Assembly: GCA_017302895.1 (NCBI GenBank)
Contig: JAFLBV010000001.1
Location: 186,001 to 250,000, forward strand
Source of the DNA: Ignavibacteria bacterium
GTDB taxonomy: Bacteria > Bacteroidota > Ignavibacteria > Ignavibacteriales > Ignavibacteriaceae
Direction of reading: 5' to 3'
DNA length: 64,000 nucleotides
Shown here: positions 21,718-43,489 of the stretch, in pieces
Layout: each line of letters opens with the position of its first letter
How positions within the stretch are numbered: the stretch's first letter is position 1
Notes under the pieces: model-generated
What the model saw: the letters and a program-made list of their open reading frames with translations, nothing else
Databases searched by the model: none
What the model was told of the DNA's origin: nothing
Made by a program: the position numbers and the translations under genes

Positions 21718-23469
21718 TTATTTCAGCACTGAGAGTTTCTTTACAATCCTGTTGCCATTTGATGCCAGTTCATAAAGGTAAATTCCCGAACTCATACCCT
21801 CTGCATTCAGAGTGACAGTGTGCTGACCGGCATGTCTGTATTCGTTGATCAGTTCTTTAACGATGTTTCCGAGGATATCGTAAACTTTAAGTGTTACGGT
21901 CCCTCCTTTTGCAGTGGTAAAAGAGATTCTGGTTTCGGGATTAAATGGATTCGGGTAGTTCTGCATCAGGTTAAAACCATGAATACCGGAATGATCTGTT
22001 TCAGGTTCCACATCCGTAAGGGTCGTGTCTTCCACAATCCGGTTGAATGAACCGGGGAGTAAACCGTTAACAAGCTGAACAATCCCCGAACTCCACATAA
22101 TGACAACGGAATCGATTGCGGTAGCTGTTCCAAGTCCAAAATGCAGTTGCATGTTCTGACTGCAATGCCCCGATTGTGCAGATACCCGTCTTGTCATCCA
22201 GCGCGGAGTCCCGTTTTCAGTCACTTTCAGTTTTACAACCGCACCGATTCCACTTCTGTTGCTTTTTCTTCCCTCAAGATCGATCATTATCCAGTTATTT
22301 GAGCCGCCCGAATTTCGATAGAGTGAATTATTCTGATTTGCACCAAAACAGTTTGCGGTAAAGAGATCGAGCCAGCCGTCCTTGTTATAGTCGGCTAAAG
22401 CTGCACCGTATGTCCAGCCTTTTTGATCTGACAGAGTCACAGTGTCGCGAACAAAATTTCCGTTTCCCTGATTGATGTAGAGATAATTTGTCATCGGCGT
22501 GTTGTCGGCATTGAAGGCATTTGAAACAAAAAGATCGAGGTCGCCGTCATTATCGATGTCCCCAAAAATGCTTGAGAATGAATTTGCGACATCGCTGTTG
22601 AAGGGTTCTGCCACTTTGGTGAAATTGTTCTTTCCGTCATTCAGGAACAACCAGTTTCTGCCACCTTCGGCATTGGTAATGAAAAAATCCATGTCACCGT
22701 CGTTGTCCACATCTTCATAATTTGAACTGATGGAACTTCCTCCGTTATTCAGAAGGGGAGCATTACCCGTTCTGCTGAACGAACCATTTCCGAGATTTGT
22801 ATAGAGGTTTTCATTCTGACTCCCTTCATTTACGACGAAAAGATCGGGGAGGAAATCTCCATTGTATTCGATGAAATCGGCATTTCTTGAAAAAAACTGG
22901 TCGGTCAGGAATCCCGTTTGAGGCTGTTTTGTGAACGAACCGTTTCCATTGTTTTTGTAGAGGAGGTTTCGAGTGTTGCCCGCACTGTTTGTTACATAGA
23001 GATCGAGCCAGCCGTCTTTGTTGTAGTCTCCCCATGTTCCCGTTTCGGAGTATGTCAGATCAGCCATCACCGCCGAAGATGATAGCTGTGTGTAAGTGCC
23101 GTCTCCGTTGTTTTTGTAAAGGTAGTTTATTTTGTTGTACCATGTGGAGACAAACAGATCGGGGAATCCGTCATTGTCGAAATCACCCCATGAGGCACCA
23201 ACAGAGGGGGAATTGTCTTTTGTTATCACTAAAGAATCAATTTTGGTAAAAGTACCATCGCCGTTGTTTTGGTAGAAAAAATTGTTTTGTCCGCCGTTCT
23301 TTCCGTTACTTACGAAGAGGTCGAGGTCTCCGTCCCTGTCATGATCAATCCAGTTGACGGAGCGGGAGTCACCCCCGTCGTTCACGATGGCACCTTCGGT
23401 GATTTTGATGAATCTTTGCGCATTTAACGCAAAAGAGAGGAAGATCAGGAAAATAATCGCATATCTCAT
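21718..23469 (-). CDS. FG-GAP/VCBS repeat protein with ASPIC/UnbV domain and T9SS sorting domain
   Basis: A secreted protein of about 583 aa with signal peptide MRYAIIFLIFLSFALNAQ. Six or more FG-GAP/VCBS repeats follow, each with a calcium-binding-like core such as DFDNDGFPDLFVS, DYNKDGWLDLYVT and DIDNDGDLDLFVS, which would fold as a beta propeller. The ASPIC/UnbV domain covers the NNWIMIDLEGRKSNRSGIGAVVKL region. The end (NLMQNYPNPFNPETRISF to KKLSVLK) is a T9SS sorting domain, so the protein is probably surface-attached or secreted. The ATG at 23469 has an AAGGAG just upstream and is preferred to the earlier in-frame start. Confidence 0.85.
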   Translation of the reverse strand: MRYAIIFLIFLSFALNAQRFIKITEGAIVNDGGDSRSVNWIDHDRDGDLDLFVSNGKNGGQNNFFYQNNGDGTFTKIDSLVITKDNSPSVGASWGDFDNDGFPDLFVSTWYNKINYLYKNNGDGTYTQLSSSAVMADLTYSETGTWGDYNKDGWLDLYVTNSAGNTRNLLYKNNGNGSFTKQPQTGFLTDQFFSRNADFIEYNGDFLPDLFVVNEGSQNENLYTNLGNGSFSRTGNAPLLNNGGSSISSNYEDVDNDGDMDFFITNAEGGRNWLFLNDGKNNFTKVAEPFNSDVANSFSSIFGDIDNDGDLDLFVSNAFNADNTPMTNYLYINQGNGNFVRDTVTLSDQKGWTYGAALADYNKDGWLDLFTANCFGANQNNSLYRNSGGSNNWIMIDLEGRKSNRSGIGAVVKLKVTENGTPRWMTRRVSAQSGHCSQNMQLHFGLGTATAIDSVVIMWSSGIVQLVNGLLPGSFNRIVEDTTLTDVEPETDHSGIHGFNLMQNYPNPFNPETRISFTTAKGGTVTLKVYDILGNIVKELINEYRHAGQHTVTLNAEGMSSGIYLYELASNGNRIVKKLSVLK

Positions 23470-23588
23470 TTGGCTGCTCCTTAAATAAAGTTTCAAATTC
23501 GAACGCAATTAAATAACGGTGATGAAGTAATTTTACGACGGGATGACGAATAGTTATATGGAAGTGGTGAACTGTTATGAAGTGATGA

Positions 23589-27559: not shown

Positions 27560-28057
27560 GTTAATATGGTTGTTTGGTTTTTGGGAATGCTACTCGTTTT
27601 TCAATAACAGATTCTTCACAGGATGAATTAGATGTCTTCAACTTTCAGCGGGAGCGAAGAACAAAAAATCAACAACGCTATTATAAAGATTTTTCACAAT
27701 CAAATCCCAAACAATATGGTCCTCCTGATAGAGGGGAGAAAAATAAATTATTTATTTTTTATGAAAATCATTTTTTTTGACTTTTGCCAGTTTTATTAAT
27801 CGTTTCAGTAACCCCTGAAAAATATTTTTGTGTCAGCTTACTAATTTAATTAGTAGATCTACTAATTATTGATAAGTTTGGGTATTATTAGATTTTGCAG
27901 TTAAAATAATTATTCGTAGTTTGTTCATCATTTTTTTAACAACCGATTCATCCACCTAGAGAATCGCTTTTTGAGATGATTTAACTTCAGTCCGTATTTA
28001 AAATTTTCTGAGGTTGATCAAGAGATTACTACAATATAACTTGACAAGGAATATTCG
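27560..28057. other. Gene-free divergent intergenic region
   Basis: A 498-base AT-rich stretch between the O-acetylesterase gene (leftward) and the first T9SS module gene (rightward). It holds a 22-base palindrome and a TAAGTTTG promoter-like box; no RNA gene or short conserved ORF is recognised. Confidence 0.7.
27840..27880 (+). promoter_or_regulatory. Palindromic operator candidate with -7 box
   Basis: A perfect 22-base palindrome at 27847-27868 (half-site TAATTAGTAGA and its complement) is joined on its left by a further ACTAATT at 27840-27846, giving three alternating ACTAATT half-sites. TAAGTTTG at 27873-27880 matches the -7 box, so a bound protein would cover the -33 region. No TTG stands 20 bases upstream of the box. 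Confidence 0.5.
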
Positions 28058-31000
28058 ATGAAACATATGTTACAGCTTTTTTTGGTTTTGAATGTGCTGA
28101 TTTATACGCAAAATAATTCAGCGGTTAAACTGACCCATACAACACAAGAGGTAACATTTTCAAATGTTATCCCATTAGAGACTTACACAATAGAATTATG
28201 GATCAAGTTTGATGGTGCAGTCACCTACGGCGGTACTGATGCAGGCGCCGGCTCCATATTCAATTTTTATGGTGGTGGCTACAATCGGGCAATACACATG
28301 CACAACGGCAAGTTGTGTCATTATACATATGATAACACCCAAAGGCATGTTACCGGGGCCAGTACAATTCAAGAGGGCGTATGGTATCATGTTGCAATCG
28401 TGGCTCAATCGCATGGTATGATGAGACTTTTTATCAACGGGACTGAGGAGGGGACTTCTATTCAGCTTGGTGCTCTACAACCTACAGACATGGCAAAAAT
28501 TGGATCTTATAATAATCCGTACGAGTATGGAGTGTCGAATGCGGTTATTGATGAGTTGCGTGTGTCAAATAGTATTCGATATACCGGCAATTTCACCCCT
28601 TCCTCGACAGAGTTCGTGACCGATGCGAACACGGTCTCACTATACCACTTTAATGAGGGTTCCGGGACACAAACAGCCAACTATGTTTCCAACAGTTGGA
28701 CTGCCGGTACTTTTTCCACTTCAAATATCCTCTGGGTCGAGGGGAAATTCAATAATACGCCCCAAACAGTTTCAATCCCGATGATCACAATCCAGGATGG
28801 AACATTTACTATGGGATGTACTGGGGAACAAAATAGTTGCGATGATGATGAATATCCTACTCACCAAGTATCCCTGTCAGCTTATGAAATAGGCAAATAC
28901 GAAATTACGCAACGAGAGTGGCGAACAGTTATGGGAACTAATCCTTCTTATTTTACCGGAGATAATAAACCTGTTGATAATCTGCAGTGGATAGATGCAA
29001 TTAATTTTTGCAATACACTAAGCATGAGGTCAGGTCTTACACCGGTATATAGTATAAATGGCTCAGTAGTTACTGCAGATTGGAATGCAAATGGATACAG
29101 ACTCCCCACCGAAGCTGAATGGGAATTTGCTGCCAGAGGTGGGTCCCAATCTACAAACACGATATACAGTGGCAGCAATGATATTAACTCAATTGCCTGG
29201 CAAGAGGGTAACGCCGGTAGTGAATCACATAATGTCGGGACACTCGCACCAAATCAAATAGGGATATATGACATGAGTGGAAATGTATACGAATGGTGCT
29301 GGGACTGGTATTCAGAGACTTACTATACAGCTGACTCTCAAAATAATCCTACAGGTCCGTTATCGGGTACTTATCATTCTTTAAGGGGAGGTAGTTGGTT
29401 ATACGGTCAAGCAAGTCAGTGTAGAGTTGTTAATCGCGGGAGCATAAATGGTCCTTCTCAACGAATAGATTATGGATTTCGCGTTGCAAGGACAATACAA
29501 TCTTCTGTTTCTAGCGGTGATGATTGGAAATTAATTGTAAATGGTTCAACTCAAAATTTGTTTGACCAACTCAATTATGCAGGCGTTGACTCCCTCGCCA
29601 CGGAAGGCTACGATCCTTCTCTCGATACTCCCAATCCGCCAACCCCTCCGGGGAATTACATCGATGCATACTTCTATCATCCCGAGTGGAATTCACCCTT
29701 GGGTTCCAAGTTCGCGAGTGATGTAAAACAGTCAACAGATCTCGCTGATACAGTAAAAAGATGGTTCTTTGAAGTTGAAACGAATGTACTCAACGACACA
29801 GTGAAACTTCAATTTACACAGGAGAATGTGCCCTCCAAGTTTGGTAAGTATCTGACAGATATGCAAACAGGCAAGAGGGTTGACCTTCGATACACAGATA
29901 CATATAGGTACTACAACACAAGCTCTTCCCCCCGCAAATTCCAGTTGATCATTGGAGACAGTACTTCACCTGTAATTTCCAATCTTATCCCCAAGGGAGA
30001 TGAAATCTGGAGGAGTAATAGCAATAAAACTGTTTCTTGGACAATGAGTGACGGAACAGGAATAGACTCTGTCTTCCTTTATTCAAGCAACAACAATGGA
30101 ACAAACTATACAAGGTTTGCATCCATAGGAAACATATCAAATTACAATTGGAGTATCCCACAGGAATATCTGAACAATGGTTACCGCGTAAAAACAGTTG
30201 TGAGAGATTCCCTCGGAAATCTGAAAGAAATCTTCAGTCCTCTGGCATTTACAGTCGTCGGGGATTCATTACTTACACAATCAACAGCAGGGTGGAACCT
30301 TACAGGTACTCCTCTCTCACCAAACGATACAACACTGACAGGAATACTGGGAGATGATATAACCACAAGTCCATACTTTGTTTGGGGATATACTCTCGCA
30401 ACAGGATACACCCTTCCTTTGGGAATGTCATTCGGAACAGGTTACTGGCTTGGACTTCTGAACAATCATACATGGGATGTAAGAGGAACAGCAGTCGAAT
30501 CAGATTCCATTGGACAATCCCTTAATCTTGGTTATAATCTAATAGGTACAAAGTATGTAAGAGAAGTATCAAAAGACAGAATGACATTCGTTAAGTCGGG
30601 AACAGCCTACAATTTTAATCAGGCGGTAACAGCAGGATTAATCTCTAATGCAATATTTGGATACAACGGAAGCGGATATACAGAAGAAGACACTTTGTCA
30701 TTATTTGGAGGCTACTGGCTTGGAGTACTTCAAGAGGGAGTGACACTGTATCAGAAACCTGTAAGTACACAACTCCCCTTAAGCAAAGGTAATCAGGAAC
30801 CTGAACTCTTTACAGAGAACAACTGGAAACTCAGACTTAATGCAGAGTCAGGGATACAAAGTGACAACATAACAGAGATTGGTGTAACAGAAACAGCAAC
30901 TGCAGGGTATGACACAGAATATGATGCAGCAAGACCACCGGTACCACCTGTAGATAAGTTCATAGAAATCTACTCGGAAGTAAGCGGCACGGGTTATCCT

Positions 31001-31564
31001 CAGTTCCTTGGTAACAAGTATGCAAGAGACTTCAAGAACACACCTAGCTGGACAATCAAGGTTAAGAAGGGAAACACCGGAAGCAATGAAGTAACGATTA
31101 ACTGGAACAGGAATGAAATTGGAAATCTTCCTGATGGAATGAGAATAATGATGACAGATCTTGTCACAGGTCAAGCGATAGACATGAGAAGAGACAGCAG
31201 TTATTCATTTACTTACAGTGAAGAGAGAACATTCCAAATAAACGGAACAGCGACAGGAATTGAAGATGCAGTAACAGCACCGACAGATTTCAGTTTAAGT
31301 CAGAACTATCCGAATCCATTTAATCCAAGTACGAAGATAAGATACAGCATTCCTGAAGAGAGCAGAGTAAAGATAACAGTTTACAACTCACTTGGAGAGA
31401 TGGTAAAAATCCTGACGAATGAAACAGCACAAAGAGGTTGGTATGAAACAACCTTTGAAGCGACACAAATACCGTCAGGAATATACTTTGCAAAAATTGA
31501 AGCACAGTCGATACAATCGAATAAACAGTTTATTCAAACAATCAAAATGTTATTAATAAAGTAG
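28058..31564 (+). CDS. T9SS protein: LamG + SUMF1-fold domain + shared C-terminal module
   Basis: A 1168-aa secreted protein. After a signal peptide (about residues 1-20) comes a LamG/concanavalin-like domain (about 20-225), then a formylglycine-generating-enzyme-fold domain (about 240-480; MITIQDGTFTMGC, YEITQREWRTVMGTNPSYF, GYRLPTEAEWEFAARGG, YDMSGNVYEWCWDWY, LRGGSW). The catalytic cysteine pair of true formylglycine-generating enzymes is absent near LRGGSW, so this is probably a binding domain. From residue 489 the shared module begins: domain A (489-633), an Ig-like segment (634-735), two B repeats (736-900), A' (about 920-1070) and the T9SS sorting domain (from about 1075, NYPNPFNPSTKIRY). 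It is first in a tandem array of four. Confidence 0.85.
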   Translation: MKHMLQLFLVLNVLIYTQNNSAVKLTHTTQEVTFSNVIPLETYTIELWIKFDGAVTYGGTDAGAGSIFNFYGGGYNRAIHMHNGKLCHYTYDNTQRHVTGASTIQEGVWYHVAIVAQSHGMMRLFINGTEEGTSIQLGALQPTDMAKIGSYNNPYEYGVSNAVIDELRVSNSIRYTGNFTPSSTEFVTDANTVSLYHFNEGSGTQTANYVSNSWTAGTFSTSNILWVEGKFNNTPQTVSIPMITIQDGTFTMGCTGEQNSCDDDEYPTHQVSLSAYEIGKYEITQREWRTVMGTNPSYFTGDNKPVDNLQWIDAINFCNTLSMRSGLTPVYSINGSVVTADWNANGYRLPTEAEWEFAARGGSQSTNTIYSGSNDINSIAWQEGNAGSESHNVGTLAPNQIGIYDMSGNVYEWCWDWYSETYYTADSQNNPTGPLSGTYHSLRGGSWLYGQASQCRVVNRGSINGPSQRIDYGFRVARTIQSSVSSGDDWKLIVNGSTQNLFDQLNYAGVDSLATEGYDPSLDTPNPPTPPGNYIDAYFYHPEWNSPLGSKFASDVKQSTDLADTVKRWFFEVETNVLNDTVKLQFTQENVPSKFGKYLTDMQTGKRVDLRYTDTYRYYNTSSSPRKFQLIIGDSTSPVISNLIPKGDEIWRSNSNKTVSWTMSDGTGIDSVFLYSSNNNGTNYTRFASIGNISNYNWSIPQEYLNNGYRVKTVVRDSLGNLKEIFSPLAFTVVGDSLLTQSTAGWNLTGTPLSPNDTTLTGILGDDITTSPYFVWGYTLATGYTLPLGMSFGTGYWLGLLNNHTWDVRGTAVESDSIGQSLNLGYNLIGTKYVREVSKDRMTFVKSGTAYNFNQAVTAGLISNAIFGYNGSGYTEEDTLSLFGGYWLGVLQEGVTLYQKPVSTQLPLSKGNQEPELFTENNWKLRLNAESGIQSDNITEIGVTETATAGYDTEYDAARPPVPPVDKFIEIYSEVSGTGYPQFLGNKYARDFKNTPSWTIKVKKGNTGSNEVTINWNRNEIGNLPDGMRIMMTDLVTGQAIDMRRDSSYSFTYSEERTFQINGTATGIEDAVTAPTDFSLSQNYPNPFNPSTKIRYSIPEESRVKITVYNSLGEMVKILTNETAQRGWYETTFEATQIPSGIYFAKIEAQSIQSNKQFIQTIKMLLIK
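29522..31564 (+). repeat. Shared C-terminal module, copy 1
   Basis: First of four direct repeats of about 2.04 kb. It runs from the DWKL codons to the gene's stop and includes the sorting domain. Long exact or near-exact DNA stretches are shared with copies 2 and 3. Confidence 0.85.
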
Positions 31565-31571
31565 GTGTAAA

Positions 31572-34500
31572 ATGAAGCTAAGATTACATTTAAATCCTCA
31601 AAATAGAAAATCCGATAAGGTTTTGAGATTAATAAATAGGTTAAATACATTTTGGTTGATGGTTGGATTCATTGTTTTTATTTTAAACTTTCTTATCCAA
31701 GCTCAGAGTAGGACAACATTATGGGAGAAGAGTGCAAAGCTTACTACCCTGCCACCGTGGTTTAGCAACACTAATACCGAGCGCGGATTGGCGTACGGGA
31801 ACGGCAAAATTTATGTTTCAACAACAAAGTATGGAACCAGAGTGCTTGTACTTGATGCCGCAACCGGAGATTCGGTTGGCGTTTTAAATATGACAGGAGT
31901 CTCGGGAGGTTCCGGAGCATCAATTGCCGATGTGGAAGTGGATGCAGACGGAGCAATCTATGCCTGTAATCTTGTTTTAACAGCCACAACCTCGGCATTC
32001 AAAATTTACAGATGGGCAAATGATTCAGCTGTGCCTGTTAACATCATTTCTTCATCCACACCGGCCGCAAGACTGGGAGACAAATTTACTGTTGTGGGTT
32101 CCTCAAACAATAATACTCTCACAATTTATGCAGCCACCTCCACCACCAACAAAGTTTATAAGTGGACAACAGCAGATAAAGGCAATACTTTTCTCCAGGA
32201 TTCAATAATTCTTTCCGGAGTTTCAGCCACTGCACCCGGTCCGTCTCCTGTCGTATATCCGCTTACGGCCGGATTGTCAGAATTCGTTTACAAATCAAAC
32301 GGTTCCCAGGGAAGAAGATTTAATGCTGATGGATCGATAATTGACTCAATCTCAACAACAATGCTGCCAACTTCAGGCAATGCTGTTAGATATTTTAGTC
32401 AAAACGGCATAAAATATCTTATAGGATATCAATATTCCAACACCCCTCAAAATGGAATTCGCCTGATAGATGCTACCAGGCAATACAGCACCCAACATTC
32501 AGTTCTTGATTACACACCGGGTTTGGGAACCACAGCGAATGCCAATGGTACAGGTGATATAGCAATGTTGCTCGGTACAGGAGAGGTAACTTTCTATGTT
32601 CTTGCGACAAATAACGGTATGGCTGCTTATAAATACTTTTTTGATACTTTACCAGAAACCAATACAATAACATCATTCCCATATTCTTATGATTTTTCAA
32701 ACGGCATGATTACAAATGGTGGATGGTCAGGTAACTTTATCGATAGAGGTACTGAATCAAAAACCAATTACTCGGCAAGATTTACTTATAATTACATCCC
32801 TGCGGCGCAATCAGGATTGACTTTCGGGTACTTGGTTTCTCCAAAAATTCACCTCCCTGCTAATCACAGAGTTAAATTCTGGTGGAAGGATGATGACATT
32901 ACTGCTGTGGTCGGTCAGGATACCACATTTTTTGAGGTATCAACTGATAATGGCACTACATGGGCTACTTTAGGATTTATGTCAAGAGCAAGTTCCATGG
33001 CAGCCTATGAAGAAGCTATTTTTGATTTAAGCGAATTCGCCGGAAACAACTTCAGAATGAGATGGAGAGACAAAACTAATGGATCTTTCTCTGCTTATGG
33101 TTTTGGTCTTGATGATATCCTCATTGAACCGGTTGCTCAGGCGGCTGTGATTGCATTAAATCCAACTTCTACAGCATTTGGAACGACTTATGTCGGCGGC
33201 TACATGCAGAAAACCGTGGTTGTAAGCAACAATGGCGGGGTGCCTTTGATGGCGACCCTCACTCTTCCCCCAAAGATAACTGCAAATACCACCTCTCTAA
33301 ACATCCCAAATGGGCAGTCATTTAACCTCATATTAACCTGGACTCCTACCAGTGCAGGGGCGTTCAGTGATTCCATAAGGTTTATTACGAATGACGCAAC
33401 GGCGAGTGATTTCTACTACAAACTCACAGGTACCGCAGAAACGCCTTTTGTGGTAAATGAGGTTGTTCAAAATTTTGATACCTCTACTGGTTCAATTCCT
33501 GCAAACTGGACAGGCAATTATACTGTTTTAGCTGGTGGAGGAGTTGGCTGGTCTAGGAGACTCACAAGGAATCTTTACGGAACTGCTACCAACATGACTG
33601 GTTTGTTCACAACTCCGTTTTTCTCTGCAACTGCCTCTTCAGTCCTGAAATTTAAGTACAGATTTGTGAATTACGCTGGATATGGAACAGGAACTGCAAC
33701 TGCCACACCTGCAACCGACTTCAAGTATTATATCTCTGTTTCAACAAACTATGGAAGCAGCTTCACAGTTGTTGATTCAATCGGTTCGCATAACCACATT
33801 GCGGATACAAATTATGTTGAGAAAATGTGGAATCTTGCAGCTTATGTCGGTCAAACCATTCAGGTTAAGATTGATGGCGAGAGACTTAATGTAGCCGATT
33901 TCTATTCCGATTTCGACGACTGGTTCATGGGTACTCCTCCTGCAGCAGCACCGGATGGACCGATTGCTTATTACCCATTTAATGGAAATGCAAACGATGA
34001 AAGTGGGTATGGAAATCATTTAACCCCTCGAAATGTCGTTTTATCACCCGATAGATTTGGTGTCAACAATTCTGCTTACAGCTTTAATGGTGTAAATGCT
34101 GATTTAACATCAAATTTAACGCAAATACCAACAGGTAATCCGGATATCTCCTATTCATTCTGGTTTAAGAATACCAGGGAAAACTTTGGTGCCCTCGGAG
34201 ATGTTTTGTTATCTCTGGGGACAACATCACAAAGTCAAAGAATTACCATTTCTTACTACCCGGGAGTGATAGTATTCATCGGAGAGAGAAATGATTATTA
34301 CTGCTACTCAAACATTATTCATTCTCAATGGAATCATATAACATTTGTAAAGCAAGTTAATCAATTAAAATTTTATCTTAATGGTAACTTGATTGGAACG
34401 GGTACTGTTGGGAATACTAATCTTACCAATACTAATTTTTTCATTGGAAGCAACGGAAATATTAATCACAATGGGGGTGAATATTTCCAAGGATTAATAG

Positions 34501-36638
34501 ATGAAGTCAGCATCTTTAACAGAGTAATATCTGATCAGGAAATAACGGCATTGTATAATGGTACAAATCCAGGTGTTATTACGAGCGGGTACAGTACTTG
34601 GAGAGTAAAAATGACCACTTCCACATCTAATCTTGCTGACAACCTAAACTACGCCGGCGTTGATTCCCTCGCCACGGAAGGTTACGACCCTTCCCTCGAT
34701 ACCCCCAACCCGCCAACTCCTCCGGGGAATTATATCGATGCCTACTTCTATCATCCCGAATGGAATTCACCGTTGGGTACCAAGTTCGCGAGCGATGTAA
34801 AAAAATCAACAGATCTGGCAGATACAGTAAAAAGATGGTTTTTTGAAGTTGAGACAAATGTACTTAACGACACAGTAAAACTTCAATTTACACAGGAGAA
34901 TGTTCCCTCCAAGTTCGGCAAATATCTCACAGATTTGCAAACCGGAAAGAGGGTTGACCTTCGTTATACAGATACATACAAATATTACAATACAAGCTCA
35001 TCACCCCGCAAATTCCAGTTGATCATCGGTGACAGTACTTCACCTGCAATTTCCAATCTCATCCCCAAGGGAGATGAAATCTGGAGGAGTAATAGCAATA
35101 AAACTGTTTCTTGGACAATGAGTGACGGAACAGGAATAGACTCTGTCTTCCTTTATTCAAGCAACAACAATGGTGCAAACTATACACGGTTTGCCTCAAT
35201 AGGAAACTTATCAAATTACAACTGGAGTATCCCACAGGAATATCTGAACAATGGTTACCGTGTAAAAACAGTTGTGAGAGATTCTCTCGGAAACCAGAAT
35301 GAAATCACAAGTCCTCTTGCATTTACAGTAGTCGGGGATTCATTGCTTACACAATCAACAGCAGGGTGGAACCTTACAGGTACTCCTCTCTCACCAAACG
35401 ATACAACAATGACAGGAATACTGGGAGATGATATAACCACAAGTCCATACTTTGTCTGGGGATATACTCTCGCAACAGGATACACCCTTCCTTTGGGAAT
35501 GTCATTCGGAACAGGTTACTGGCTTGGACTTCTGAACAATCATACATGGGATGTAAGAGGAACAGCAGTCGAATCAGATTCCATTGGACAATCTCTTAAT
35601 CTTGGATATAATCTAATAGGTACAAAGTATGTAAGAGAAGTATCAAAAGACAGAATGACATTTGTCAAGTCGGGAACACCATACAGTTTTAATAGTGCGG
35701 TAACAGCAGGACTGATTTCGAATGCGATATTCGCATACAACGGAAGCGGATATACAGAAGAAGACACTTTGTCATTATTTGGAGGCTACTGGCTTGGAGT
35801 ATTGCAGGAGGGAGTGACACTGTATCAGAAACCTGTAAGTACACAACTCCCCATAAGCAAAGGGAATCAGGAACCTGAACTCTTTACAGAGAACAACTGG
35901 AAACTCAGACTTAATGCAGAGTCCGGAATACAAAGTGACAACATCACAGAGATTGGTGTAACAGAAACAGCAACAGCAGGGTATGACACAGAATATGACG
36001 CAGCAAGACCACCCGTTCCACCTGTGGATAAGTTCATAGAGATCTACTCAGAAGTAAGCGGTACAGGTTATCCTCAGTTCCTTGGAAACAGGTATGCCAG
36101 AGACTTCAAGAACACACCTAACTGGACAATCAAGGTTAAGAAGGGAAACACCGGAAGTAATGAAGTAACGATTAACTGGAACAGGAATGAACTTGGGAAT
36201 CTACCTGACGGAATGAGAATAATGATGACAGATCTTGTCACAGGTCAAACGATAGACATGAGAAGAGACAGCAGTTATTCATTTACTTACAGTGAAGAGA
36301 GAACATTCCAAATAAACGGAACACCGACAGGAATCGAGGATGCAGCAACAGCACCTACGGATTTCAGTTTAAGTCAGAACTATCCGAATCCATTCAATCC
36401 AAGTACAAAGATCAGATACAGTCTCCCTGAAGAGAGCAGAGTAAAGATAACCGTTTACAACTCACTTGGAGAGATGGTAAAAATCCTGACAAATGAGACA
36501 GCACAAAGAGGTTGGTATGAAACAACCTTTGAGGCAACACAAATACCTTCCGGAATTTACTTTGCAAAGATTGAAGCACAATCGTTGCAATCGAGTAAAC
36601 AGTTTACTCAGACAATCAAAATGTTATTAATTAAATAA
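31572..36638 (+). CDS. Giant T9SS protein: propeller-like, cleaved-adhesin and LamG domains + shared module
   Basis: A 1688-aa protein, the largest in the window. It starts with an unusually long n-region before the hydrophobic segment (FWLMVGFIVFILNFLIQAQ, residues 30-50). Residues about 60-350 look like a beta-propeller (DAATGDSV..., ADVEVDADGAIYACN); then a choice-of-anchor J/cleaved-adhesin-like domain (about 365-525, YDFSNGMITNGGWSG), a HYDIN/ASH-like Ig domain (about 530-625, NPTSTAFGTTYVGGYMQKTVVVSNNGG), a second cleaved-adhesin-like domain (about 630-795) and a LamG domain (about 797-1005, IAYYPFNGNANDESGYGN). The shared C-terminal module starts at about residue 1009 and ends with the sorting domain. 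The ATG is 7 bases after the previous stop. Confidence 0.85.
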   Translation: MKLRLHLNPQNRKSDKVLRLINRLNTFWLMVGFIVFILNFLIQAQSRTTLWEKSAKLTTLPPWFSNTNTERGLAYGNGKIYVSTTKYGTRVLVLDAATGDSVGVLNMTGVSGGSGASIADVEVDADGAIYACNLVLTATTSAFKIYRWANDSAVPVNIISSSTPAARLGDKFTVVGSSNNNTLTIYAATSTTNKVYKWTTADKGNTFLQDSIILSGVSATAPGPSPVVYPLTAGLSEFVYKSNGSQGRRFNADGSIIDSISTTMLPTSGNAVRYFSQNGIKYLIGYQYSNTPQNGIRLIDATRQYSTQHSVLDYTPGLGTTANANGTGDIAMLLGTGEVTFYVLATNNGMAAYKYFFDTLPETNTITSFPYSYDFSNGMITNGGWSGNFIDRGTESKTNYSARFTYNYIPAAQSGLTFGYLVSPKIHLPANHRVKFWWKDDDITAVVGQDTTFFEVSTDNGTTWATLGFMSRASSMAAYEEAIFDLSEFAGNNFRMRWRDKTNGSFSAYGFGLDDILIEPVAQAAVIALNPTSTAFGTTYVGGYMQKTVVVSNNGGVPLMATLTLPPKITANTTSLNIPNGQSFNLILTWTPTSAGAFSDSIRFITNDATASDFYYKLTGTAETPFVVNEVVQNFDTSTGSIPANWTGNYTVLAGGGVGWSRRLTRNLYGTATNMTGLFTTPFFSATASSVLKFKYRFVNYAGYGTGTATATPATDFKYYISVSTNYGSSFTVVDSIGSHNHIADTNYVEKMWNLAAYVGQTIQVKIDGERLNVADFYSDFDDWFMGTPPAAAPDGPIAYYPFNGNANDESGYGNHLTPRNVVLSPDRFGVNNSAYSFNGVNADLTSNLTQIPTGNPDISYSFWFKNTRENFGALGDVLLSLGTTSQSQRITISYYPGVIVFIGERNDYYCYSNIIHSQWNHITFVKQVNQLKFYLNGNLIGTGTVGNTNLTNTNFFIGSNGNINHNGGEYFQGLIDEVSIFNRVISDQEITALYNGTNPGVITSGYSTWRVKMTTSTSNLADNLNYAGVDSLATEGYDPSLDTPNPPTPPGNYIDAYFYHPEWNSPLGTKFASDVKKSTDLADTVKRWFFEVETNVLNDTVKLQFTQENVPSKFGKYLTDLQTGKRVDLRYTDTYKYYNTSSSPRKFQLIIGDSTSPAISNLIPKGDEIWRSNSNKTVSWTMSDGTGIDSVFLYSSNNNGANYTRFASIGNLSNYNWSIPQEYLNNGYRVKTVVRDSLGNQNEITSPLAFTVVGDSLLTQSTAGWNLTGTPLSPNDTTMTGILGDDITTSPYFVWGYTLATGYTLPLGMSFGTGYWLGLLNNHTWDVRGTAVESDSIGQSLNLGYNLIGTKYVREVSKDRMTFVKSGTPYSFNSAVTAGLISNAIFAYNGSGYTEEDTLSLFGGYWLGVLQEGVTLYQKPVSTQLPISKGNQEPELFTENNWKLRLNAESGIQSDNITEIGVTETATAGYDTEYDAARPPVPPVDKFIEIYSEVSGTGYPQFLGNRYARDFKNTPNWTIKVKKGNTGSNEVTINWNRNELGNLPDGMRIMMTDLVTGQTIDMRRDSSYSFTYSEERTFQINGTPTGIEDAATAPTDFSLSQNYPNPFNPSTKIRYSLPEESRVKITVYNSLGEMVKILTNETAQRGWYETTFEATQIPSGIYFAKIEAQSLQSSKQFTQTIKMLLIK
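34597..36638 (+). repeat. Shared C-terminal module, copy 2
   Basis: Second copy, nearly the same as copy 1 throughout, including the type-1 version of domain A (DLADTVKRWFFEVETN). Confidence 0.85.
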
Positions 36639-36648
36639 GGAGCGTGAG

Positions 36649-39417
36649 ATGAAAAAGATACTCGCAATATTTCTGTTTGTATTCTGTATTGTGATACAGG
36701 CACAGAACATCCCCACGAATGGTCTGGTAGCGTATTATCCATTTAATGGGAATGCGAATGATGCATCTGGAAATGGACATAATGGTACCGTCAATGGAGC
36801 TCAGCTAACAACGGACCGTAATGGGACACCAAATTCAGCTTATGAGTTTGGGGGTAGCGGACAAAATATTAATGTACCCCATCATGAAGAGCTTAACCCG
36901 ACAGGAACAGGGTATTCCGTATCTGTTTGGGTCAATATTTATCCGGGCTTCAGTGTTGGAGACATTATGCGTAAGCTGAATGATTCCTTTACCGAAACAT
37001 TTGGAATTCGCTACCATGATCCCAATTCATATCCAAACTATGGGCTCACATTCACAACCCAACGGAACTTGGTGGATTATACCGCGAATATATTTCCAAC
37101 TCCACCCTTAAATCAATGGGAACACATCGTTGGGATTAATGATGGTTTAAAATTGAGAATCTTCAGGAATGGAGTTTTGGTTTCAACCAGTCCAAGTTTT
37201 GCTGTACCAAATCAACCATATAACAATACAGCTCCATTACAATTTGGATCCACAAATTATTCCTTTCGTGGAAAGATTGATGATATAGCAATTTACAATC
37301 GGGTATTGAGTACCTCAGAGGTCAGATATCTTTACGATGGTACGACTCCACCTGAGCCCACCACATCCGCAGACAGTTGGAAAATGCAGATAACAACAAC
37401 AATTCAAAGTCTGTTCGATCAGTTGAACCATGCTGGGGTGGACACAAATGCCACAGAAGGATATGATCCGGCGTTAGATACACCGAATCCCCCAACCCCT
37501 CCGGGGAATTATATTGATGCATACTTCTATCACCCTGAATGGAACTCACCATTAGGAAGTAAATTTGCATCAGACATCAAAAAAAGTACTAATTTATCCG
37601 ATACAGTAAAGAGGTGGTTCTTTGAAGTTGAATCGAATGTCACAAACCAGAATGTTACCCTGAATTTTACAGGTACCAACATTCCTGCGAAATTTGGCAG
37701 GTATCTTACGGATATGTTAACGGGCGAAAGAATAAATCTTAAGAATACCAATTCGTACACCTACTTAAACTCATCAACATCCCCCCGCAAATTCCAATTG
37801 ATCATTGGAGACAGCACTTCTCCTGCAGTTTCGAATATTATTCCCAAGGGAGATGAAATCTGGAGGAGTAATACCCAAAAGACAGTCTCCTGGACAATGA
37901 GTGACGGAACAGGAATAGATTCAGTCTTCCTGTATTCAAGCAACGACAATGGCACAAACTACACACGGTTTGCCTCAATAGGAAACTTATCAAATTACAA
38001 CTGGAGTATCCCACAGGAATATCTGAACAATGGTTACCGTGTAAAAACAATAGTCAAAGATTCCCTCGGAAACCAGAATGAAATCGCAAGTCCACTTGCA
38101 TTTACAGTTGTCGGGGATTCATTACTTACACAATCAATAGCAGGATGGAATCTTACGGGTACTCCTCTCTCACCAAACGATACAACCTTGACTGGAATAC
38201 TGGGAGATGATATAACTACAAGTCCATACTTTGTCTGGGGATATACTCTTGCAACAGGATACACCCTTCCTTTGGGAATGTCATTCGGAACAGGTTACTG
38301 GCTTGGACTTCTGAACAATCATACATGGGATGTAAGAGGAACGGCAGTCGAATCAGATTCCATTGGACAATCCCTTAATCTTGGATATAATCTTATAGGT
38401 ACCAAGTATGTAAGAGAAGTATCGAAAGACAGAATGACATTCGTTAAGTCGGGAACTTCTTACAATTTTTATCAGGCGGTAACAGCAGGATTAATCTCTA
38501 ATGCAATATTTGGATACAACGGAAGTGGCTATGTGGCAAAGGATACAATGTCATTATTCGGAGGCTACTGGCTCGGAGTATTACAGGAGGGAGTGACACT
38601 GTATCAGAAACCTGTAAGTACACAACTCCCCATAAGCAAAGGGAATCAGGAAACTGAACTCTTTACGGAGAACAACTGGAGACTCAGACTTAATGCAGAG
38701 TCCGGAACACAAAGTGACAACATAACAGAGATCGGTGTAACAGAAACAGCAACTGCAGGATATGACACAGAATATGATGCAGCAAGACCCCCGGTACCAC
38801 CTGTAGACAAGTTCATAGAAATCTACTCAGAAGTAAGCGGTACAGGTTATCCTCAGTTCCTTGGTAACAAGTATGCCAGAGACTTCAAGAACACACCTAA
38901 CTGGACAATCAAGGTTAAGAAGGGTAACACCGGAAGCAACGAAGTAACGATTAACTGGAACAGGAATGAACTTGGTAATCTACCTGACGGAATGAGAATA
39001 ACGATGACAGATCTCGCCACAGGTCAATCGATTGACATGAGGAGAGACAGCAGTTACTCATTTACTTACAGTGAAGAGAGAACATTCCAAATAAACGGGA
39101 CAGCGACGGGAATAGAAGATGCAGTAACAGCACCAACGGATTTCAGTTTAAGTCAGAACTATCCGAATCCATTCAACCCAAGTACGAAGATTCGTTACAG
39201 TCTCCCTGAAGAGAGCAGAGTAAAGATTACAGTTTACAACTCACTTGGAGAGATAGTAAAAGTCCTGACGAATGAAACAGCACAGAGAGGTTGGTACGAA
39301 ACAACCTTTGAAGCGACACAAATACCGTCAGGAATATACTTTGCAAAGATTGAAGCACAGTCGATACAATCGAATAAGCAGTTTATCCAAACAATCAAAA
39401 TGTTGTTAATTAAATAA
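36649..39417 (+). CDS. T9SS protein: LamG domain + shared C-terminal module
   Basis: A 922-aa secreted protein with signal peptide MKKILAIFLFVFCIVIQAQ and one LamG domain (about 22-230; LVAYYPFNGNANDASGNGHNGTV, INDGLKLRIFRNGVLVS, IDDIAIYNRVLS), which resembles the LamG just before the module in the preceding gene. The shared module begins at about residue 243 (DSWKMQITTTIQSLFDQLNH) and ends with the T9SS sorting domain. An AAGGAG lies before the ATG, 10 bases after the previous stop. LamG domains bind glycans or proteins, so a surface adhesin or substrate-binding role is likely. Confidence 0.85.
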   Translation: MKKILAIFLFVFCIVIQAQNIPTNGLVAYYPFNGNANDASGNGHNGTVNGAQLTTDRNGTPNSAYEFGGSGQNINVPHHEELNPTGTGYSVSVWVNIYPGFSVGDIMRKLNDSFTETFGIRYHDPNSYPNYGLTFTTQRNLVDYTANIFPTPPLNQWEHIVGINDGLKLRIFRNGVLVSTSPSFAVPNQPYNNTAPLQFGSTNYSFRGKIDDIAIYNRVLSTSEVRYLYDGTTPPEPTTSADSWKMQITTTIQSLFDQLNHAGVDTNATEGYDPALDTPNPPTPPGNYIDAYFYHPEWNSPLGSKFASDIKKSTNLSDTVKRWFFEVESNVTNQNVTLNFTGTNIPAKFGRYLTDMLTGERINLKNTNSYTYLNSSTSPRKFQLIIGDSTSPAVSNIIPKGDEIWRSNTQKTVSWTMSDGTGIDSVFLYSSNDNGTNYTRFASIGNLSNYNWSIPQEYLNNGYRVKTIVKDSLGNQNEIASPLAFTVVGDSLLTQSIAGWNLTGTPLSPNDTTLTGILGDDITTSPYFVWGYTLATGYTLPLGMSFGTGYWLGLLNNHTWDVRGTAVESDSIGQSLNLGYNLIGTKYVREVSKDRMTFVKSGTSYNFYQAVTAGLISNAIFGYNGSGYVAKDTMSLFGGYWLGVLQEGVTLYQKPVSTQLPISKGNQETELFTENNWRLRLNAESGTQSDNITEIGVTETATAGYDTEYDAARPPVPPVDKFIEIYSEVSGTGYPQFLGNKYARDFKNTPNWTIKVKKGNTGSNEVTINWNRNELGNLPDGMRITMTDLATGQSIDMRRDSSYSFTYSEERTFQINGTATGIEDAVTAPTDFSLSQNYPNPFNPSTKIRYSLPEESRVKITVYNSLGEIVKVLTNETAQRGWYETTFEATQIPSGIYFAKIEAQSIQSNKQFIQTIKMLLIK
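37375..39417 (+). repeat. Shared C-terminal module, copy 3
   Basis: Third copy. Domain A is the type-2 version (NLSDTVKRWFFEVESN), matching copy 4; from the Ig-like segment on it matches copies 1 and 2. Confidence 0.85.
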
Positions 39418-39427
39418 GGAGTGAGAG

Positions 39428-42055
39428 ATGAAAAATTTGCTAAAAACCATTTTATTGGTTTTTGTTCCGGCGCTGATTTTGGCCACAATCTCTGCCAAGG
39501 AAGGAACACAATGGAGGGCAAATAGTACGCAAAGTAATTCTGCGATTAAGATGAATTCAGTTGAAGACATCGATTGGATAAGTATATCTGAAAAAAATGG
39601 AACATTCCCGGTTAGTCCTGCTTCTCAGGGATTCGATACAATACTTGTCTATTCAGCGAGTCATGATTTCTTTTCGGCATGGCGTGAGGACTGGACAATC
39701 AATCCTGCGAAAACCTATCTATTGAAAGTTACGGGAATTTTCGGAGGTGCCGGTGGACAGCCTGAATTTGATGCAGCTTTTAGATTAGCCTCTCCAAATA
39801 TACCGATGAATGAATTTTGGAGTGCTTCATTTAGACCCAGAAGACCTGATAACGATGTCTATAATTTAGATCACACTTACTACTACACTTTGAATGCACC
39901 CGATGGTTTAATCTGGATTGCTTTCGCCGATCCTGTATACGGGGATAATTCAGGTACAATGAATCTAAGTTTATACGAATTGCGCGAAACCGGCAATACA
40001 GGAAGTTTTTCCAATTGGAAAATGCAGATCAATACTTCTGTTCAAAGCCTTTTTGATCAACTCAATTATGCTGGTGTGGATACTAATGCCACCGAAGGAT
40101 ATGATCCGGCACTGGACACTCCCAATCCACCAACCCCTCCGGGAAATTATATAGATGCATACTTCTATCATCCCGAGTGGAATTCACCTTTGGGTGCCAA
40201 GTTCGCGAGCGATGTAAAGAAATCAACCAATCTTTCTGATACAGTAAAGAGGTGGTTCTTTGAAGTTGAATCGAATGTCACAAACCAGAATGTTACCCTC
40301 AATTTTACAGGAACCAACATTCCTGCAAAGTTTGGCAAGTTTCTGACAGATATGCTTACGGGTGAAAGAATAAATCTTAAGAATATCGACTCGTATACTT
40401 ACTTAAACTCATCTACTGCACCCAGGAAATTTCAGTTGATAATTGGCGACAGCACTTCTCCTGCAATTTCGAATCTCATTCCAAAGGGAGATGAAATCTG
40501 GAGGAGCAATACCAATAAAACTGTTTCCTGGACAATGAGTGATGGAACAGGAATAGACTCTGTCTTCCTTTATTCAAGCAACAACAATGGAACAAACTAT
40601 ACAGAGTTTGCTTCAATCGGAAACATATCAAATTACAACTGGAGTATCCCACAAGAATACTTAAACAATGGTTACCGTGTAAAAACAGTTGTGAGAGATT
40701 CTCTCGGAAACCAGAATGAAATCGCAAGTCCTCTTGCATTTACAGTAGTCGGGGATTCCCTCGCTACCGGTTCTCCGATTGGATGGAGCCTTTTCTCAAC
40801 TCCTTTGGAGTCGTACAATTTAAGCAAATCTTCAATTTTTGATGATGACATAACCGGTAATCCTTATTTTGTGTGGGGCTACAAGTTATCTGAAGGTTAT
40901 AATTTTGCAACCGATATCAACTTCGGTACGGGGTATTGGTTGGGTCTCCTGGCTCATTCACCTTGGGATGTTAGAGGATTGGCAGTGGAGAATGACAGTA
41001 CTCTCCAAACATTACTTACCGGCTATAACATAATAGGCACTAAATATGTTCGTCCTGTTAAAAAGAATGATCTCAGGTTCATCAAAGCCGGACAAAATAA
41101 AAGTTTTGATGACGCGGCGACAGCAGGTTGGATCACAAATTCGATATATGAATATTCCGGTGGAGGGTATGTTGCTACAAATCAGCTTGGACTGTTTAAC
41201 GGTTATTGGCTGGCAGCACTTGTAGATGGGGTTGAGATGGTTCAAAAACCGACAACAACTCAAGTGACAGATTTAGCAGATTCCAATCCCGAAAAGCAGT
41301 TTACTGCAGATAATTGGAATATAAAAATCGCAGTTGAATCGGGAAACCTGGTTGATCGTTCCCTTTCGTTGGGAGTTAGCGAAAATGCAACGATCGGCTT
41401 TGATACTCAGTTCGATTCTCCCAGACCTCCGGTTCCTCCTGCAGGTAATTATGTAGAGATTTTTTCCGAAGTGACGGGAAGCAGTTACCCCCAATTCCTG
41501 GGTAATAAATATGCGATAGACTATAGACCTGTTGATGCAGCGGCATGGAATTTAAAAGTTAAGATGAATAATCAAGCTAACCAGACCGTCACTCTTAGAT
41601 GGAACAGATCTGCACTTGCCACACTTCCTGATAGTGTTTCAGTCAAACTGACTGATTTTATTACCGGATCACAAGTAGATATGAAAACGGACAGCGTTTA
41701 TTCATTCACATATACAGGTGAGCGTAATTTTGTTGTAAATACTACACTTACTGATATAAATGCAGACGCAAACATTCCATCAGAATTTGTGTTGCAACAA
41801 AACTATCCAAATCCGTTCAATCCAGGCACAATTGTGAGATTCAGTATTCCCCAGGAATCGAAGGTCACTATTACTGTGTACAATTCTCTTGGTGAGGCAG
41901 TAGGAATGATCAGGAATGAAATACTGAGCAGTGGATGGTATGAAAGTGAATTCAGAGCGGACAATCTGCCAAGCGGAATTTATTTCGCTAAACTCGAAGC
42001 AATTTCATCAAATGACAAGTTTGTCAGAACAATCAAAATGCTTCTGTTAAAATGA
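39428..42055 (+). CDS. T9SS protein: unknown N-terminal domain + diverged shared module
   Basis: An 875-aa secreted protein with signal peptide (about residues 1-24). The N-terminal domain (about 40-190; FPVSPASQGFDTILVYSASHDFFSAWREDW, GIFGGAGGQPEFDAAF) is not recognised; it looks all-beta. The module starts at about residue 195. Its first 250 residues are close to the third gene of the array, but after SPLAFTVVGDSL (nucleotide about 40757) the copy is much more diverged although domain order is unchanged, ending in NYPNPFNPGTIVRF. It is the last gene of the array and is followed by a strong terminator. Confidence 0.85.
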   Translation: MKNLLKTILLVFVPALILATISAKEGTQWRANSTQSNSAIKMNSVEDIDWISISEKNGTFPVSPASQGFDTILVYSASHDFFSAWREDWTINPAKTYLLKVTGIFGGAGGQPEFDAAFRLASPNIPMNEFWSASFRPRRPDNDVYNLDHTYYYTLNAPDGLIWIAFADPVYGDNSGTMNLSLYELRETGNTGSFSNWKMQINTSVQSLFDQLNYAGVDTNATEGYDPALDTPNPPTPPGNYIDAYFYHPEWNSPLGAKFASDVKKSTNLSDTVKRWFFEVESNVTNQNVTLNFTGTNIPAKFGKFLTDMLTGERINLKNIDSYTYLNSSTAPRKFQLIIGDSTSPAISNLIPKGDEIWRSNTNKTVSWTMSDGTGIDSVFLYSSNNNGTNYTEFASIGNISNYNWSIPQEYLNNGYRVKTVVRDSLGNQNEIASPLAFTVVGDSLATGSPIGWSLFSTPLESYNLSKSSIFDDDITGNPYFVWGYKLSEGYNFATDINFGTGYWLGLLAHSPWDVRGLAVENDSTLQTLLTGYNIIGTKYVRPVKKNDLRFIKAGQNKSFDDAATAGWITNSIYEYSGGGYVATNQLGLFNGYWLAALVDGVEMVQKPTTTQVTDLADSNPEKQFTADNWNIKIAVESGNLVDRSLSLGVSENATIGFDTQFDSPRPPVPPAGNYVEIFSEVTGSSYPQFLGNKYAIDYRPVDAAAWNLKVKMNNQANQTVTLRWNRSALATLPDSVSVKLTDFITGSQVDMKTDSVYSFTYTGERNFVVNTTLTDINADANIPSEFVLQQNYPNPFNPGTIVRFSIPQESKVTITVYNSLGEAVGMIRNEILSSGWYESEFRADNLPSGIYFAKLEAISSNDKFVRTIKMLLLK
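40012..42055 (+). repeat. Shared C-terminal module, copy 4 (mosaic)
   Basis: Fourth copy. The first part, to about 40757, is close to copy 3; the rest is homologous at the protein level only. Confidence 0.8.
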
Positions 42056-42091
42056 GTTAAAGTCTTAATCTCTATTGTTGTGGTGTAATGG

Positions 42092-42128
42092 AAAAGAGGC
42101 TGTCGATTTCCGGCAGCCTCTTTTTTTT
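42092..42128 (+). terminator. Strong intrinsic terminator at the end of the T9SS array
   Basis: AAAAGAGGCTG (42092-42102) pairs with CAGCCTCTTTT (42114-42124), followed by T to 42128. The four T on the other strand could also help stop the converging symporter gene. Confidence 0.9.
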
Positions 42129-42154
42129 AGCTAATTCTAACTAAAAGTTAATCA

Positions 42155-43489
42155 TCACTCCACCTCATGAATATATTTTTCCGTTTCCGATTTCAGAATC
42201 TTGGTCAGCATGATGAGGGAGATGATATTCGGGATTGCCATCAAGCCGTTGGCAAGATCGGCGAAATCCCAGACGAGATCGAGGGTTTGAACCGACCCTA
42301 CATAAACAAAAATTACCCACAGGATTCGATAGGGGAGGAGTACTTTTTCTCCAAAGAGGTATTCGGCAGCTTTTTCACCGTAGTATGACCAGCCGAGAAT
42401 GGTCGAAAAAACGAATGTCAGAAGTGAAAATGTGAGAAAAATCGGACCGATTATTCCTACATGCCCAAAGGCTTCGCTCGTGAGAGCCGAGCCGTTAAGT
42501 CCTTTTTCTGTCCAGAATCCGCTGTTTACCACCACAAGACCTGTGAGAGCACAAACAACAACTGTATCCCAAAATGTACCTGTGGAGGAGACAAGTGCCT
42601 GGCGAACAGGATTCCTCGTTTGGGCTGCAGCGGCTACAATAGGCGCACTTCCCAAACCGGATTCATTGCTGAAAAGTCCTCTTGAAATACCTGCCTTTAC
42701 CACTTCTTTCATTGCAGCGCCGGCAAATCCTCCAATGGCTGCATTTCCGGTAAATGCTGATTCAAAAATTTTGATGAAGGTATCACCGAGTGTCGAAAAA
42801 TTGACGATGAGCAAAACGACACATCCGATAATGTAGATGATCGCCATGAATGGGACGAGTGCTTCACAAACTTTCGCGATCGATTTGATTCCTCCGAGGA
42901 TAACGAGTGCAGTAAACAACGCCATCACAACACCTGCGATGTGGGGATTGATTCCAAGGGTGTCGCTGCTTAAATGGGCGATCGAGTTTGCCTGAACCAT
43001 GTTTCCGATACCAAATGCTGCGATAGCGGTAAGAGCTGCGAAAATTACTCCGAGCCACTTCATGTTCAAACCTCTCTCGAGAACATACATCGGTCCGCCT
43101 GCATATCCAGATTCGGTGTGAACACGGTACTTTACAGAAAGAAGTGCTTCTGAATACTTTGTTGCAATTCCAAAAATACCCGTCAGCCACATCCAAAGGA
43201 CAGCTCCGGGACCGCCTGCAACAATGGCAGTGGAAACGCCGACGATATTACCCGTTCCGATGGTGGCTGCAAGAGCCGTGGCCAGGGCACCGAACTGACT
43301 GACATCACCCGCCGCTCCTTCATCTTTCTGGAAGGAGATTTTGATCGCCTTAAAGATGTATTTTTGGATAAATCCCGTTCTTACGGTCAGATACAAGTGA
43401 GTGCCAAACAGCAAAATGATGAGGGGCCATCCCCAGACGAATCCGGCAGCTGCCTTTACAGAAGATTCAATAATGTTCAGGATTTCCAT
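42155..43489 (-). CDS. Sodium:alanine/glycine symporter (AGCS family)
   Basis: A 444-aa inner-membrane transporter of normal AGCS length. Family motifs include ALATALAATIGTGNIVGVSTAIVAGGPGAVLWMWLTG (helix with Na+ and substrate sites), ISRGLFSNESGLGSAPIVAAAAQTRNPVRQAL and FSTILGWSYYGEKAAEYLFG. It would take up alanine or glycine with sodium. It starts 38 bases after the stop codon of the GH9-deacetylase gene on the same strand, so the two may be co-transcribed. Confidence 0.9.
   Translation of the reverse strand: MEILNIIESSVKAAAGFVWGWPLIILLFGTHLYLTVRTGFIQKYIFKAIKISFQKDEGAAGDVSQFGALATALAATIGTGNIVGVSTAIVAGGPGAVLWMWLTGIFGIATKYSEALLSVKYRVHTESGYAGGPMYVLERGLNMKWLGVIFAALTAIAAFGIGNMVQANSIAHLSSDTLGINPHIAGVVMALFTALVILGGIKSIAKVCEALVPFMAIIYIIGCVVLLIVNFSTLGDTFIKIFESAFTGNAAIGGFAGAAMKEVVKAGISRGLFSNESGLGSAPIVAAAAQTRNPVRQALVSSTGTFWDTVVVCALTGLVVVNSGFWTEKGLNGSALTSEAFGHVGIIGPIFLTFSLLTFVFSTILGWSYYGEKAAEYLFGEKVLLPYRILWVIFVYVGSVQTLDLVWDFADLANGLMAIPNIISLIMLTKILKSETEKYIHEVE

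Follow-up and report, generated by a model that had tools for sequence, protein, structure and literature searches.

Four adjacent genes of an Ignavibacteriaceae bacterium, named A to D in order, occupy positions 28058-42055 on the plus strand of the window, which is the whole stretch of 64,000 nucleotides analysed here. Each of them joins its own N-terminal head to a common C-terminal module. We consider it probable that they form a cluster that is read in one direction, probably as one transcript, and encodes four T9SS type A cargo proteins, in which four surface heads are carried by a shared, old multi-domain chassis, and that this cluster arose by duplication, head capture and gene conversion or crossing-over. 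The array's own genome is referred to as G000, and that of the sister species as G003.

Architecture of the four genes

The genes, their parts and the terminator are as follows (the gene A module was delimited with the alignment of the modules, domain HMMs cut from this alignment, and PF18962).

28058-31564, plus strand: gene A
28058..29521, plus strand: head of A; hydrophobic N-terminus, LamG (PF13385, residues 30-172), FGE-sulfatase/SUMF1-fold domain (PF03781, residues 242-478)
29522..31564, plus strand: module of A
29522-29959, plus strand: WKL1 of A
29960-30262, plus strand: Ig-like domain of A
~30281-30763, plus strand: GWN pair of A
~30821-31243, plus strand: WKL2 of A
~31271-31561, plus strand: Por_Secre_tail of A
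31572-36638, plus strand: gene B
31572..34595, plus strand: head of B; propeller-like, MAM-like and ASH regions, then LamG (residues 850-991), by Pfam except for the propeller-like region
34596..36638, plus strand: module of B
36649-39417, plus strand: gene C
36649..37374, plus strand: head of C; hydrophobic N-terminus and LamG (PF13385, residues 69-225)
37375..39417, plus strand: module of C; mosaic, with D-like WKL1 and A/B-like second half
39428-42055, plus strand: gene D
39428..40012, plus strand: head of D; ~195 residues, no relatives found
40013..42055, plus strand: module of D; first ~248 codons A-C-like, the rest a divergent copy, break near 40758
42090..42130, plus strand: intrinsic terminator, end of the putative operon; hairpin and T run, -25.1 kcal/mol, z = -5.9

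The intergenic gaps are 7, 10 and 10 bp. These short gaps, the common strand and the strong terminator after gene D support co-transcription, and the four genes are probably co-expressed. All four proteins have hydrophobic N-termini, as read directly from the sequences, which are candidate Sec signal peptides, and all carry the type A sorting domain of T9SS cargo: PF18962 gave 32.8-41.9 bits (curated cut-off, 27) and TIGR04183 gave 32.0-37.8 bits (curated cut-off, 23). At least 150 sorting domains were found in G000 (3.98 Mb), which suggests that the T9SS machinery is present in this genome. The operon would most probably make four surface proteins together, each head being placed on the common chassis. 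The T9SS would export them, and anchoring would take place as for other type A cargo, which in Bacteroidota is attached via linkage to anionic LPS (PMC9143113).

The sequence-only reading had described four adjacent genes with a common C-terminal module and differing heads, and this was confirmed (blastp E = 0.0). The module has 680 residues and begins just before a W residue in each of the four proteins. Its protein identity is 95% between A and B, 89-90% between A and C, and 63% between A and D; the corresponding DNA values are 93% for A/B and 87% for A/C. In DNA, the D module can be matched to A-C (82-85%) in its first ~700 bp only, and its second half is only ~52% identical to A-C; in other words, the module is not uniform. 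Simple tandem duplication of a whole gene was rejected, because the heads are unrelated or 35% identical while the modules of A-C are 88-96% identical.

The module consists of WKL1 (residues ~1-146), an Ig-like domain (~147-247), the GWN pair (~254-414) and WKL2 (~434-576), followed by the CTD; the names WKL1, GWN and WKL2 were coined in this analysis. The sorting domain is confined to the last ~95 residues and is an ordinary type A CTD (PF18962 at residues 1084-1158 of A). The PorU-processed cargo CTDs of Porphyromonas gingivalis have 67-88 residues (PMC11285876). The remaining ~590 residues of the module are separate domains upstream of the CTD. Since the CTD is ordinary and the upstream parts are distinct domains, the 680 residues are a string of domains rather than a long signal. 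The proposal of an unusually long sorting domain was therefore abandoned, the CTD being of normal size by both PF18962 and TIGR04183.

No Pfam or NCBIfam model matched the WKL, Ig-like or GWN parts. WKL1 and WKL2 show 27% identity within one protein and the HMM of one finds the other, which indicates that they are homologous. The AF2 model of the WKL domain (20 sequences) has an all-beta fold with a pLDDT of 94.5, and a Foldseek search of this model against the PDB returned no match at E ≤ 0.001. For the module as a whole, AF2 produced a poor model (pLDDT of 54.5). The WKL, Ig-like and GWN parts might serve as a stalk.

The earlier assignments of the heads were mostly borne out by Pfam for A, B and C; the propeller-like region of B had no Pfam match, and the D head had no match in Pfam, in the PDB sequences or in 146 related genomes. 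The LamG domains of B and C both directly precede the module, yet they are only 35% identical. The presence of LamG and/or FGE/C-type-lectin-like folds in three heads means that A-C probably bind glycans or glycoproteins, as judged from the fold families. Together with a neighbouring GH9 gene, these folds suggest glycan-related roles.

Exchange among the modules and the head of gene B

The codon-aligned modules of A-D show three histories along their length. In codons 1-150, A pairs with B, and C pairs with D (tree support for C+D, 94). Codons 151-240 are similar in all four genes. From codon 241, the DNA identity of 30-codon blocks among A, B and C is mostly 86-100%, and that of D is about 40-70%. 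The tree of codons 241-679 groups A+B+C with a support of 100 and places D at outgroup distance; this last segment of D is 52% identical to A-C, nearly as distant as other genera (44-45%). Breaks were detected by MaxChi near codons ~134 and ~248, both near domain borders, and none of 2000 codon permutations (0/2000) reached the observed values. The conflicting segment trees and the MaxChi breaks exclude a uniform module history. The Ka/Ks values among A, B and C in codons 241-681 are about 0.08-0.09. The conflicting trees, in combination with these low values, mean that the modules exchanged segments and are under purifying selection. Gene conversion and crossing-over cannot be told apart from one genome; either process between the copies, together with purifying selection, would keep the modules alike.

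A second tandem array, of six or seven T9SS cargo genes, is located at G000:C1:585000-600500 (L068). Homogenisation there concerns mainly the CTD (last ~95 residues; about 70-84% in several pairs), and the rest is mostly at ~25-55%. This is the same process as in A-D with a shorter shared part.

Most of the head of gene B has a counterpart in another cargo gene.

31653..33956, plus strand: residues 28-795 of the B head, a homologue of the N-terminal region of a T9SS cargo of G000 with 1932 residues (C1, L120); 82-83% amino acid and 77% nucleotide identity

This cargo, at G000:C1:348k, is conserved genus-wide, with orthologues in G003 (95% identical to the G000 copy), G002 and G005. It has a CTD without WKL or GWN. 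The match of B stops at residue 795, just before the LamG and the module. Because the homology ends where the LamG and the module begin, B is a chimera, and its head is found with different C-terminal parts. The B head is 83% identical to the G000 copy and 81% identical to the G003 copy. Since these values are nearly equal, the split of the B head predates the G000-G003 pair or came from outside it. The heads of the array would differ because their N-terminal parts came from other cargo genes, as was shown for B. The sequence-only reading had proposed that heads could be exchanged by recombination between the modules; recombination as such is supported by both the exchanged segments and the head that B has in common with another T9SS gene.

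Distribution of the chassis and the array site

Within G000, the full module is confined to A-D, besides a ~30% identical gene (L023:1758-4817) with the order WKL-ASH-GWN-WKL, which is single-copy and kept through much of Ignavibacteriaceae. Like A-D, this gene has the outer order WKL1 ... GWN pair - WKL2 - CTD; unlike them, it has ASH-type repeats in place of the Ig-like domain, and one copy per genome. In ten other genomes the full module occurs in single genes (one each as far as scored: G034, G035, G149, G140, G370, G261, G364, G220, G317, G454). An eleventh, G449, has it in three genes that are dispersed and have the heads subtilase, LTD and none. The heads found over the module elsewhere include subtilase + FN3, three LamG + FG-GAP + Fib_succ_major, LTD, beta-helix, LamG + BNR, and LamG. 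The full modules closest to those of the array belong to other genera (47-51%). Relatives of WKL are present in MAGs with the labels Cloacimonadota, Neomarinimicrobiota, KSB1, Bacteroidetes and Deltaproteobacteria. The class and phylum searches were samples with at most three candidates scored per genome, and rescoring covered the full-module positives of the class sample but not G449 or G454. Scans of this extent, made at the levels of family, class and phylum, revealed no tandem array of full modules besides A-D.

The module is thus not unique to the array, being also present in single and dispersed genes of other genomes. As the same domain order occurs elsewhere under unrelated heads, the constant part is an old reusable chassis and not an invention of the array. 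The WKL1 - Ig-like - GWN pair - WKL2 - sorting domain string is an old phylum-wide composite that many single genes use, and this lineage has four tandem copies of it; the array would have grown by duplication, head capture and gene conversion. The sequence-only reading had held that a constant part is reused to present different heads. Its idea of reuse stands, here and phylum-wide. Its idea that the array itself is the system is not supported, the module having the same order in unrelated single or dispersed genes of many genomes and no second array of full modules having been found in these scans; this is largely the outcome that the reading itself had named as speaking against it.

In family f20 (L101, L102, L103), a conserved cargo cluster begins with a large gene in which a beta-helix head precedes the full module; two smaller WKL-domain genes and then a further CTD gene follow. 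Three adjacent genes of this cluster carry WKL domains, and the full module is in only one of them. In G449, the gene at L141:3247-5322 is a nearly headless full module, which starts at residue ~20 of 692, unless its start or frame was missed.

The array lies in a stretch that is absent from the sister species.

27576..42156, no strand: stretch without counterpart in G003; the alignment of the flanks (88.6-88.8%) ends at 27575 and resumes at 42157

At this site G003 has an unrelated 2.06 kb with an AAA-ATPase_like/PDDEXK_9 ORF (L074:9195-10904), which suggests that the site, flanked by the genes for the alanine symporter and the esterase, is a variable locus. The array is also absent from G001. 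The difference between the two sister species could stem equally from an insertion into G000 or from a loss in G003. The GC content of the array (40-42%) is slightly lower than that of its surroundings (42-45%), and gives no clear signal of strongly foreign DNA. The neighbours include the GH9 enzyme and an FG-GAP cargo, both assigned by Pfam, and a protein that resembles a sialate O-acetylesterase, as judged by reading its sequence. An FG-GAP/ASPIC protein at 21718-23508 of the window and an unassigned 530-residue protein at 52835-54427 are each T9SS cargo with an ordinary CTD.

Upstream of the array there are short inverted repeats only, and a phase-variable promoter was rejected on this basis. 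No reverse transcriptase or recombinase was found among the neighbouring window ORFs annotated with Pfam (up to ~60.4 kb); a reverse transcriptase would be expected near the FGE/C-type-lectin-like head of A if this were a target of a diversity-generating retroelement. Adjacent genes on the same strand, the terminator after D, the short inverted repeats and the lack of these enzymes make a switching system at the array unlikely.

The congener G001 has tandem arrays of another kind (L135 on C28 and L136 on C29), whose proteins have a C-terminal FGE-sulfatase fold. Several are fused to a Ser/Thr kinase-like N-terminus, and the ends look variable (RGGSW..CRVANR..GFRLAR).

Origin, related systems and meaning of the chassis

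Three other readings of the locus were weighed. The cluster could have come from another lineage in one horizontal transfer, and not have been built in place. We regard this as possible but the less probable course. It agrees with the absence of the array in the three congeners examined, with the unrelated sequence that G003 has at this site, with the closest full modules being those of other genera, and with the distance of the B head from the resident orthologues, which is about that of G002. However, the GC content is near that of the surroundings, the B head is closest to this genus in its grouping, neither an integrase nor border repeats were identified, and loss in the congeners is an alternative. 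Horizontal acquisition would not conflict with the main explanation, because only the origin is at issue.

The idea of an active head-exchange (diversity-generating) array, in which recombination of modules keeps swapping heads between strains to give a variable surface repertoire, seems improbable. The mosaic modules with breaks near domain borders, the head common to B and another cargo, and the presence of the array in G000 but not in the sister species would all be expected from it. Yet the mosaicism is also explained by gene conversion alone, the scans revealed no second full-module array, the region upstream offers only short inverted repeats, and the B head, equally far from the resident gene and the sister orthologue, was not captured recently. 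It is likewise doubtful that A-D assemble into a single surface complex, in which the common module would mediate interactions instead of being a neutral stalk. The operon-like arrangement, the adjoining GH9 enzyme, and the occurrence of WKL twice per module and in separate neighbouring genes of the f20 cluster would fit such a complex, but the module is also found in single genes that stand alone, without a partner in their vicinity. A cluster of four cargo proteins on an old shared chassis remains the preferred reading.

In their general plan A-D resemble T9SS type A cargo (PF18962/TIGR04183, e.g. of P. gingivalis), with a hydrophobic N-terminus as a putative signal, a variable head and a C-terminal sorting domain of ~90 residues. 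They differ from typical cargo of this type in having a further ~590 constant residues upstream of the CTD, under unrelated heads. In P. gingivalis, Kgp and other adhesin-domain surface proteins undergo domain rearrangement and allelic exchange, as shown across 21 strains (PMC5266723). The array is similar in that T9SS surface proteins were diversified by recombination and domain rearrangement, and, as would be expected of such a recombining family, its shared region has conflicting segment phylogenies and the B head occurs with different C-terminal parts. Whereas the P. gingivalis case is known from 21 strains, the array is a tandem cluster known from one genome, and its shared part is C-terminal. 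That T9SS cargo is modular and that T9SS surface proteins recombine is already known (PMC5266723). In the literature searched, no description was found of the composite chassis, its two unmodelled domains or its phylum-wide reuse, and no papers on T9SS plus domain shuffling were found. We put forward only tentatively that WKL-Ig-GWN-WKL-CTD is an undescribed general T9SS presentation chassis used phylum-wide, whose tandem copies act as a recombination platform where lineages put together new surface proteins with heads captured from other cargo genes.

The chassis is a more useful result than the array. The WKL and GWN domains have no Pfam or NCBIfam model, and the fold of WKL, though predicted with confidence, has no significant match in the PDB; they are therefore concrete targets for domain definition. 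The locus displays how T9SS surface proteins get built, with an old C-terminal chassis, heads common to other cargo and homogenised neighbours. Should the chassis aid secretion or display, it would offer a natural scaffold on which to present other heads.
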